Shown here: in pieces, positions 42,500 through 56,812 of the stretch
Layout: each line of letters opens with the position of its first letter
Numbering within the stretch: position 1 is the first letter of the stretch
DNA from: a virus
Virus record (IMG/VR): IMGVR_UViG_3300013233_000195
Location: 1 to 64,000 of that record
DNA length: 64,000 bases
Direction: 5' to 3' (one strand)
Notes under the pieces: generated by a model
What the model was told of the DNA's origin: nothing
What the model saw: only the letters and a program-made list of their open reading frames with translations
Database searches by the model: none
Program-made: the position numbers and the translations under genes

Positions 42500-42555
42500 G
42501 GGGGACTACAAGCGATTCTCACACAAGAGTTGAGCACAGGGAGTGGCCCCCGCTT

Positions 42556-42693
42556 GTGCTCGTTAGTATAACATACCATTTTTTTGAGCTAAATTTACAT
42601 TGGCTAATTTTTTTTGAGCTTCTGTGCTCTCACCTGTGCTCTTTAGTGTAACATACCATTTTTTTGAGTCATTTTTATGGTGGCTATTTTTTA
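42556..42693. repeat. Two imperfect direct repeats of about 58 bp
   Basis: Copies at 42556-42614 and 42636-42693 (80-bp period) share GTGCTC-N-TTAGT-N-TAACATACC, a T tract, GAG and GGCTA. They lie in the gene-free gap between the converging gene blocks (42500-42813). T tracts followed by GAG could act as weak bidirectional terminators or protein-binding sites. Confidence 0.7.
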
Positions 42694-42813: not shown

Positions 42814-43491
42814 CTACTCCGCGTCGTCGTCCGCGTCGTCGTCCGCGTCGTCGTCCGCGTCGTCGTCCGCGTCGTCGTCCGCGTCGATCAACGCGCGGAC
42901 GGCCGATTCGGACGCATCCCGCTCCAGCGTATCAAGCTGGCGGGCCAGCGTTTCGTGATCGGCGATCACGCGTCCCAAAAGCGTGTCGTCGTCCCCAGTA
43001 GGACGTTCCAAGAGAGAACGAACCCCGCGCAATGCCGACAGATAGAGTTTGTCATGATTCAGAACCGGATACCAGATAGACTTTTGAACCCCCTCCATCG
43101 CAAGCCGGGCCTCAGGCTTGTGGGCAAGGTGCGCAGGGAGTCCGGAAACAATCGCGGCTTGCGCCGTCCATCGGGCGGTTTTTCCCGCCGCGTGATAGGC
43201 GACTAGCCGACATTCTCGAAGTACTGTATCGGCCTCTTTTCCACCTACCTTGTAGGCGTGAATCTCCACCTCCTGCCCCTTGGGTTTGCGTCCACGCCGC
43301 GTAGCTTTGCCTGATACTCCCTCCGCGATCTTTCGGATTGCGTCAAGGGGATCATCATCGGCCACCATTCCGAGAATCCCGACACCGGCCAAGCCAATCA
43401 TGCCGACCAAGGTGCCAGCGTTGACGACTTGCGCCACAAGCTCCAACGCGAGCAACGCAAGAGCAAAAACGAGGAGCCAAGAACTACGCAT
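42814..43491 (-). CDS. Membrane-anchored protein with Ala-Asp repeat tail
   Basis: 225 residues. The N-terminus is a signal anchor or two TM helices (LLVFALALLALELVAQVV, then a Gly-rich hydrophobic stretch). The middle is soluble, with a basic patch (ATRRGRKPKGQ). The C-terminus is five ADDD-type repeats encoded by a perfect 12-bp repeat. Composition is GC-rich compared with other leftward genes. Function unknown. Confidence 0.72.
   Translation of the reverse strand: MRSSWLLVFALALLALELVAQVVNAGTLVGMIGLAGVGILGMVADDDPLDAIRKIAEGVSGKATRRGRKPKGQEVEIHAYKVGGKEADTVLRECRLVAYHAAGKTARWTAQAAIVSGLPAHLAHKPEARLAMEGVQKSIWYPVLNHDKLYLSALRGVRSLLERPTGDDDTLLGRVIADHETLARQLDTLERDASESAVRALIDADDDADDDADDDADDDADDDAE
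42819..42878. repeat. Five perfect 12-bp tandem repeats in a coding region
   Basis: CCGCGTCGTCGT repeated five times, with a partial sixth copy to 42890. In the leftward gene this encodes Asp/Ala repeats. Copy number is likely to vary by slippage. Confidence 0.9.
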
Positions 43492-43979: not shown

Positions 43980-44066
43980 TGGCACGATTCTTGCTCAAAT
44001 CTCGAGGGTTTTTTTTGGCACGATTCTTGCTCTGGCACGATTCTTGCTCTGGCACGATTCTTGCTC
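43980..44066 (+). repeat. Iteron array of TGGCACGATTCTTGC
   Basis: Identical 15-bp elements at 43980-43994, 44016-44030, 44033-44047 and 44050-44064. The last three are head-to-tail with an exact 17-bp period (element plus TC). Each matches the sigma54 consensus (GG and GC separated by 10 bp). Single copies also lie at 45970, 49074 and 51715, always in the same orientation. Confidence 0.92.
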
Positions 44067-49024: not shown

Positions 49025-49053
49025 ATTATACCATGGCGAGACGTGGCTGTCAA
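49025..49053 (-). promoter_or_regulatory. sigma70-type promoter, leftward P7
   Basis: TTGACA at 49053-49048, 17-bp spacer, TATAAT at 49030-49025 with TGG extension. The TGGCACG element ends 20 bp upstream of the -35, in the opposite orientation. Confidence 0.9.
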
Positions 49054-51665: not shown

Positions 51666-51694
51666 ATTATACCACGGCGGAGATCGGGTGTCAA
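51666..51694 (-). promoter_or_regulatory. sigma70-type promoter, leftward P8
   Basis: TTGACA at 51694-51689, 17-bp spacer, TATAAT at 51671-51666 with TGG extension. The TGGCACG element starts 20 bp upstream, as at P7. Confidence 0.9.
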
Positions 51695-51754: not shown

Positions 51755-51790
51755 AATAGCCTAAAGGATATGGAAATCCTTTAGGCTATT
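51755..51790 (-). terminator. Intrinsic terminator of the 56.6-51.9 kb operon
   Basis: AATAGCCTAAAGGAT pairs perfectly over 15 bp around a 6-base loop; the leftward transcript then runs into U7. Confidence 0.9.
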
Positions 51791-55150: not shown

Positions 55151-55164
55151 GCTCTTCTCCAAAG

Positions 55165-55196
55165 GAATAGGAGGGGGCATTAGCCCCCTCCTATTC
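55165..55196 (-). terminator. Strong hairpin between the DUF932 gene and the next
   Basis: GAATAGGAGGGGGC pairs perfectly over 14 bp with an ATTA loop. No U run follows; the hairpin also covers the region just before the next Shine-Dalgarno, so it may lower downstream expression or protect the upstream mRNA. Confidence 0.65.
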
Positions 55197-55204
55197 TCAC
55201 TTGT

Positions 55205-56269
55205 TTAGACCAATGCCAAGATTGCGGAAGCCTTACGATCTAGGTCCGCTCGACTTCCAGCAAACTTGCTATTCTGAGAAAGTCGAGTCATAGCATCCAC
55301 AACGGAGAAAGCACTGAATCGGTTAGAAGTCTCTTCAATAAGGTCTGTGACCATTTCCGAAGCCTTCTTCGAATACCCCTGCTTCTGGAGAAGCGTAAGA
55401 ACCTCTTCCTTATAGCCCAGGTCAGTATTCTCAGCAGCCCGCATCTTTGTTACAAAAGCATCCTTGCGAAGGTCTGAGATCCTGATAAGATCCTCGACCA
55501 TATAGCTGATATCGCTAAGGATTCTCTGTGAGTTTCCAACATGCCGACGGACAACCTGCTGAACCTCCGTAGCATCCCAAACAATATGGTTTGCACAGAT
55601 GTACTGGTACCAGAAGGTCTCAATACCAACAGAGCGAGAACCAACCTCTGAATTCCAAACAAAGAATCCAGGTGAGAACTCCTGGTTTTGTCCGCCAACA
55701 TCAAGCTCTACACGAGTATCAGGATCAACGAGAAACATGAACATATCCTGCTCACCCGTATAAAGCCCAGTAGCTCCATTAAACCCCTTCTTAGGAGGAG
55801 CATAATGAGGAGCGGCCTTTGAGATTGCGTCCACAACCTGAGAATCCCAAATTCGGGAATACTTATTGCTTGTTACTGCTCGAAGCTGTGCGTCAGGCTT
55901 TCCCTCTTTCAGAGTTACAAGAGAACGAACTGAACCAGCAGCAGAAGCTCTCTGTGAAAACAGTTCATTCAAAGCCACTGCTGCCGTGTGAGAAGACAGC
56001 CGATTGATCGTTCTCTTCTCTGCTCCGGCCATTCTACAAAGCTGAGAGAATGCCCAGGAGTTGATTGAGTAGGTATTACTGGAAGTACAAAGATTCACAG
56101 TGAGAGTATTGGGATCTGACTCAAAAGAGAGCTGATTAGCAGGCACGGAGAACTCTCCACTATCGCTCATTCGTTCCAGACAAGCCCTGTGAAGACTGGG
56201 AATGTCTTCAAAAGTCTCATCTGCCTTACGACTGAAAAGCTGATGACTGGCCTTCAAAAGATTTGCCAT
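55205..56269 (-). CDS. DUF932 phage/plasmid protein
   Basis: 354 residues. The build, with FWVWNSEVG-like FFVWNSEVGSRSVG, FWYQYICANHIVW and RAVTSNKYSRIWD, fits the DUF932 (phage/plasmid-related TIGR03299-type) family. The family is common on plasmids and phages; the function is unproven. It starts inside the upstream gene. Confidence 0.82.
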   Translation of the reverse strand: MANLLKASHQLFSRKADETFEDIPSLHRACLERMSDSGEFSVPANQLSFESDPNTLTVNLCTSSNTYSINSWAFSQLCRMAGAEKRTINRLSSHTAAVALNELFSQRASAAGSVRSLVTLKEGKPDAQLRAVTSNKYSRIWDSQVVDAISKAAPHYAPPKKGFNGATGLYTGEQDMFMFLVDPDTRVELDVGGQNQEFSPGFFVWNSEVGSRSVGIETFWYQYICANHIVWDATEVQQVVRRHVGNSQRILSDISYMVEDLIRISDLRKDAFVTKMRAAENTDLGYKEEVLTLLQKQGYSKKASEMVTDLIEETSNRFSAFSVVDAMTRLSQNSKFAGSRADLDRKASAILALV

Positions 56270-56640
56270 TTTCTTGGCTCCTGATTAAGAGTAGCCCTAG
56301 CCCGCCTAACTTGAGCGTGCAACCAATCAATGAACTGGAGACAGTCATCTCGGTTTACATTAGCTCTTCCTCCTATATGCCATTCATAAGGCTCTAGGGA
56401 CGCTTTCATACGAAACTGCTCCGGTGTTGGAAGCCCCGCAGCATACTTGCTTGTCTCCTTGTAATCGTAGAGAGTCCAAAGAGTCCCATCATCCCCACGA
56501 AGTACCCATTCTGTTGATACTTTGCCCCCATCTCCAGCACCATTTGGAGAACCTAATGCCACCACAAGCTCAGGATAGGTAGCTGAAAAGTAACCCTTTA
56601 GACAAGTGCCTTCAGGGCTATCACTGATTACTGCATACAT
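56254..56640 (-). CDS. Hypothetical protein behind the tandem-repeat leader
   Basis: 128 residues behind GGGAGG. YEWHIGGRANVNRDDCLQFIDWLHAQV near the end. Not recognised. First gene of a long leftward operon whose 5' leader holds two 48-nt structured repeats. Confidence 0.7.
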   Translation of the reverse strand: MYAVISDSPEGTCLKGYFSATYPELVVALGSPNGAGDGGKVSTEWVLRGDDGTLWTLYDYKETSKYAAGLPTPEQFRMKASLEPYEWHIGGRANVNRDDCLQFIDWLHAQVRRARATLNQEPRKWQIF

Positions 56641-56667
56641 AAGCAATCCTCCCATGCCAACGTCGTG

Positions 56668-56776
56668 TCATGACGGGATTGACCCACCAAGGGAAAAGGT
56701 CGGATTGTTCCCGACAATCTACCCTGTATCATGACGGGATTGACCCACCAAGGGATAAGGCCGGATTGTTCCCGAC
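56668..56776 (-). repeat. Tandem 48-nt structured repeats in the 5' leader
   Basis: Copies at 56668-56715 and 56729-56776 (61-nt period) differ at about three positions. On the leftward RNA each reads GTCGG-GAACAAT-CCGRC, then CCCTTGGTGGGTCAATCCCGTCATGA. The stem GTCGG/CCGAC becomes GTCGG/CCGGC in the other copy, keeping pairing (U-A to U-G). The upstream copy begins at the expected transcription start. Candidate tandem riboregulator or protein-binding leader. Confidence 0.8.
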
Positions 56777-56783
56777 GGCCAAC

Positions 56784-56812
56784 ATTATAGCACGGCGGAG
56801 CGGGGCCGTCAA
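56784..56812 (-). promoter_or_regulatory. sigma70-type promoter, leftward P9
   Basis: TTGACG at 56812-56807, 17-bp spacer, TATAAT at 56789-56784; the extension is TGC rather than TGG. Transcription would begin within the first structured repeat. Confidence 0.85.

Follow-up and report, generated by a model that had tools for sequence, protein, structure and literature searches.

We found that a 51-nt segment has been copied in tandem at the start of a long phage operon, and that the two copies occupy the 5' leader from the predicted transcription start (+1) to shortly before the ribosome-binding site. Judged by sequence comparison, this duplicated leader element is probably under constraint, because it extends between +1 and the ribosome-binding site, and because the substitution rate within the block is lower than that in the linker between the copies. 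The window analyzed is a 64000-base stretch of DNA corresponding to bases 1-64000 of the virus record IMGVR_UViG_3300013233_000195, which has a full length of 100,623 bases. It was found to contain phage replication genes, a ribonucleotide reductase, a portal-like protein and ten tRNA genes. The host domain is bacteria, and the virus is a phage.

Tandem units in the operon leader

The direct repeats are located on the minus strand at 56786-56726 and 56725-56665, with a spacing of 61 nt and an identity of 85% over 61 nt. This agrees with the initial annotation of this DNA, which had described two near-identical units with a 61-nt period. The unit length of 48 nt given there had to be revised, as the block within the repeats (GTCGGGAACAATCCGRCCTTWTCCCTTGGTGGGTCAATCCCGTCATGAYAC) is 51 nt long and 48/51 positions are identical, leaving three differences. 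With ≤3 mismatches allowed, the window contains two occurrences of the repeat core GGGATTGACCCACCAAGGG, compared with 0.02 expected by chance, and no other copy of the 51-nt unit was found elsewhere in the 100,623-base virus record. The tandem copying of the leader segment is real.

The two copies differ at 3/51 positions of the block versus 6/10 positions of the linker (Fisher p=0.00026). This unequal divergence fits either constraint on the 51-nt block or a duplication that was confined to the block. Tandem repeats of comparable size and identity were then sought in 0.65 Mb, comprising the window, the remainder of the record and 85 loci with related genes. This search returned 35 rows from nine sources, with periods mostly divisible by three. 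The 61-nt repeat differs from these mostly multiple-of-three repeats, yet tandem duplication itself is not rare.

Table 1 Features of the duplicated leader and the operon behind it (window coordinates).
Feature	Position	Strand	Description
Promoter	56784..56812	-	Sigma-70-type, TTGACG-N17-TATAAT
Leader unit A	56726..56776	-	51 nt; starts at predicted +1
Linker	56716..56725	-	Between units; 4/10 positions common with the stretch before unit A
Leader unit B	56665..56715	-	51 nt; 3 substitutions relative to unit A
Ribosome-binding site and likely start of first gene	56638..56653	-	GGGAGG; ATG at 56640-56638
First gene	56254..56640	-	128 aa from likely start; no assigned function
Second gene	55205..56269	-	DUF932-type phage protein (phrog_1362)
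Terminator-like hairpin	51755..51790	-	Strong; closes the run of genes, just ahead of the following promoter

Promoter, translation start and operon

The promoter upstream of the units is near-consensus and strong, matching 11/12 consensus positions with a 17-nt spacer. It places the predicted +1 at about 56777-56780, which is the start of copy A and confirms the earlier statement that the leader starts at the predicted +1. The units had also been said to fill the 5' leader of a long operon, and this was borne out by a minus-strand run of about 10 close or overlapping ORFs that extends to 51855. The next promoter after the terminator-like hairpin of this operon is at 51694 (-). The first gene appears in the ORF list with 133 aa and a start at 56655; the position of the Shine-Dalgarno sequence, 13 nt upstream of the ATG at 56640, fits that ATG instead. 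No metabolic gene was recognized behind the leader. A 15-bp inverted repeat (GGAATAGGAGGGGGC-ATTA-GCCCCCTCCTATTCT) without a clear U-tract was observed at 55164-55197, between genes 2 and 3.

Other candidate signals in this locus were rejected. A 34-aa frame (56732-56628) crosses unit B and was considered as a leader peptide, but the 61-nt period is not divisible by three and the frame lacks a good ribosome-binding site upstream. The boxA-type nut signal GCTCTTNA does not occur in the 3.1-kb locus that surrounds the leader.

Predicted folding of the leader

Each unit was predicted to fold at about -16.5 kcal/mol when taken singly, slightly better than shuffled sequences (z -1.35 and -1.29). 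Folding of the whole leader was no better than that of shuffles (z -0.29 and +0.20 in two computations), and the first 50 nt of the leader gave a z of -1.7. The initial annotation, in calling the leader structured, had thus overstated the case. The predicted hairpin of the unit is imperfect, with a CGGGA/UCCCG outer stem and a CC-GRCC/GGU-GG inner stem. The consensus fold of the two units comprises 11 pairs, with one one-sided change (G-U/A-U) and two-sided changes at 0/11, and the three substitutions between the units leave the predicted pairs intact. It is therefore true, as had been noted, that one stem retains its pairing across a base change, but this amounts to a single G-U to A-U difference, and as evidence of structure the kept pairing carries almost no weight. 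Likewise, the two segments named earlier as giving alternative folds can pair, but the products are 3-bp GGG/CCC hairpins. The alternative pairings in the leader vary with the length of the RNA folded.

We also considered a switch acting on the Shine-Dalgarno site. In the computed folds, CAAUCC of unit B can pair with GGAUUG over this site. The probability of this pairing was 0.98 for unit B alone and 0.09 when unit A was included, a result that depends on the length of the RNA. We rejected this two-unit switch as unspecific and do not claim it, because a shuffled unit A lowered the pairing as far as the real unit A in 56% of trials.

Searches for relatives of the unit and the phage

A scan of Rfam at the gathering thresholds identified tRNAs only, with no family match for the leader, and a scan at E≤5 added one meaningless microRNA match outside the units. 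Exact patterns of the unit were found neither in viral contigs (IMG/VR) nor, in one scan, in species genome contigs (GTDB). An 18-mer from the unit had 20 matches in genome contigs versus about 15 expected by chance, with no further similarity around them. Searching the unit by blastn returned chance matches only in phages and none in plasmids. A covariance model was derived from the two units and searched against the window together with 87 related loci, where only the two units themselves scored well, and against the four records that carry the closest gene 2 relatives, where nothing was found. The covariance search suggested by the initial annotation thus returned no homologue, and covariation was compared between the two copies, with no pair showing a two-sided change.

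The phage itself was similarly isolated. The 3.7-kb stretch around the leader had no match by blastn among 50,697 phage records. When IMG/VR was scanned with single proteins, four of them (the first-gene protein, gene 2, portal and DNA polymerase) returned no match. An alignment search with gene 2 identified only relatives at ≤41% identity, and the four records nearest by gene 2 contained no matches to the first gene or the portal. By these sequence comparisons, the collections searched contain no close relative of the phage. As the phage is without known relatives, missing homologues in these collections do not refute function.

Leaders and motifs at other promoters

Across the record, we identified about 19 promoters that follow, with mismatches allowed, the pattern TTGACA-N17-TATAAT and TG in front of the -10 box. 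Their 5' leaders, taken over all 19, were no more structured than random stretches (p=0.28). In the minus-strand cluster at 45-59 kb, which was picked after looking at the data, 5'-proximal hairpins (z -1.7 to -3.4) were found behind the promoters at 45.9 (a probable promoter), 49.0, 51.7, 56.8 and 59.0 kb. Two of these leaders have one common hairpin sequence and the others are different. Locally, this cluster gives the clearest hint that these operons habitually carry short 5' stem-loops, and the leader described here would be the duplicated, longer version. The differing hairpin sequences are easier to reconcile with stem-loops that serve a generic role than with one sequence-specific ligand.

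Several motifs recur near the promoters. The sequence GGGGGGTTGAC is located just upstream of the promoters at 56812 and 63443 (-) and 20550 (+), and the spacing TTGACGNTTTTTTNCTTGAC is common to the promoters at 56812 and 63443 (-). A 17-bp motif, GAGCAAGAATCGTGCCA, has four exact copies at 43980-44066 (-), three of them head to tail. It also occurs once each, with 2 mismatches, upstream of three promoters or probable promoters (45970, 49074 and 51715, minus strand), and the copies at the promoters at 49053 and 51694 lie about 20 bases above the -35 box. From its arrangement, this motif looks like a phage regulator site or an origin iteron. Outside the window, two similar promoter-plus-hairpin modules (CTTTACCCCTTGACAAA...TTGAGTCGGGG) were found in tandem at 100484 and 100370 (-) of the record, 114 bp apart.

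Possible roles of the duplicated leader

We tentatively propose that the locally duplicated 5' leader acts in cis on message stability, elongation or ribosome loading rather than as a ligand sensor, a reading that we regard as the likeliest of those weighed, plausible but short of probable. In this reading, tandem duplication of a 51-nt element beginning at the transcription start gave the 5' leader of the operon, and each unit would fold into an imperfect hairpin, with the RNA as the active form. The 5'-proximal structure may protect the message from 5'-end-dependent decay. Alternatively, the leader may tune early elongation and ribosome loading. The 5' hairpins behind the other promoters of the gene cluster may act likewise. 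Such a role is favored by the span of the units from +1 to just before the Shine-Dalgarno sequence, the unequal divergence of block and linker, the intact predicted pairs and the 5' hairpins of the cluster. It is disfavored by the folding of the leader, which is no better than that of shuffles, by the result over all promoters (p=0.28), by the post hoc choice of the cluster and by the lack of any relative for comparison in the collections searched. Stability alone would not need 51 nt of conserved sequence, which counts against a leader that acts on nothing but stability.

5'-terminal stem-loops of bacterial and phage mRNAs, for example in the ompA leader, slow 5'-end-dependent decay. The phage leader is similar to these ompA-type stem-loops in that sequence able to form stem-loops lies at the predicted 5' end of a message with strong transcription. 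However, its predicted hairpins are weak and imperfect and its 51-nt sequence is duplicated. It is also unlike the simple strong hairpins of the neighboring operons.

The same observations were weighed under other explanations. Each unit could be an RNA operator, in line with the translational operators also named in the initial annotation. It would bind a phage or host RNA-binding protein that places the operon under repression or activation, at the level of translation or transcription, with two sites giving tighter control. Long stretches of exact sequence, including the predicted loops, have been kept, and the two sites lie directly upstream of the ribosome-binding site. However, no other copy of the unit exists in the phage record, no candidate binding protein has been identified and the computed Shine-Dalgarno switch of unit B was not specific, and we consider this explanation unlikely though credible. 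We assign a similarly low probability to an idle duplication, in which slippage or recombination copied a stretch of the leader and the second copy is functionless. The near-zero folding z of the leader, the ordinary shuffle controls and the lack of a homologue in the collections searched are what such an event would leave, but the unequal divergence of block and linker is not, unless only the 51-nt block plus filler was duplicated. The units could instead be duplex DNA sites, immediately behind the promoter, to which a transcription regulator binds, as suggested by short inverted repeats in the unit (GTCGG-N7-CCGAC; GTCATGAC in copy B) and by the presence of another repeated motif upstream of promoters in the same phage. 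We consider this rather unlikely, as in copy A these inverted repeats are imperfect as well as short, operators are seldom as long as a conserved block of 51 bp and the unit is absent from the other promoters of the record. It is quite improbable that the 51-nt unit represents an unrecognized class of phage cis-acting RNA, of which it would be the first member seen and which would work in tandem, bind a protein or RNA polymerase and switch the operon on.

Comparison with known leader elements yielded further candidates. The putL element of phage HK022, which is about 70 nt long with two stem-loops, is located just downstream of the phage promoter of a long operon (PMC9378689). By analogy, the nascent leader might fold, bind RNA polymerase and let the polymerase pass the terminators of the operon. 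The leader resembles putL in its stem-loop content and in following directly on the promoter of a long operon (PMC9378689), with two 51-nt units compared with about 70 nt. The strong hairpin between genes 2 and 3 also favors this reading, although it has no good U-tract on the operon strand. However, the put stem-loops are parts of one fold without tandem duplication, the folding of the unit is weak, and the likeness noted is one of position and size. We consider this antitermination very unlikely.

The glycine and guanidine-II riboswitches are known to occur in tandem. The initial annotation had pointed to cooperative riboswitches of this kind, and the phage leader does resemble them in having two similar units in one 5' leader. 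Unlike them, it has no Rfam match, even at the relaxed threshold, and no conserved aptamer core. In addition, no homologue was found in the collections searched, no covariation was found between the copies, the folding energy is ordinary and no metabolic gene was recognized downstream. The proposal was not supported, and a metabolite riboswitch with two cooperative aptamers is extremely unlikely.

If functional, the leader would be a compact duplicated element controlling phage gene expression, and its forms with one and two copies could be compared directly. As it stands, it is one example, for which the collections searched yielded no relatives, and it mainly illustrates the layout of strong promoters and short leaders in this phage.

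Further repeats in the window

Repeats were also observed away from the leader. An imperfect 80-bp repeat is located at 42546-42677 (+) and contains GTRTAACATACCATTTTTTTGAG twice. Close to it, at 42818-42886, the 12-nt unit TCCGCGTCGTCG is repeated 5.8 times with a perfect match.
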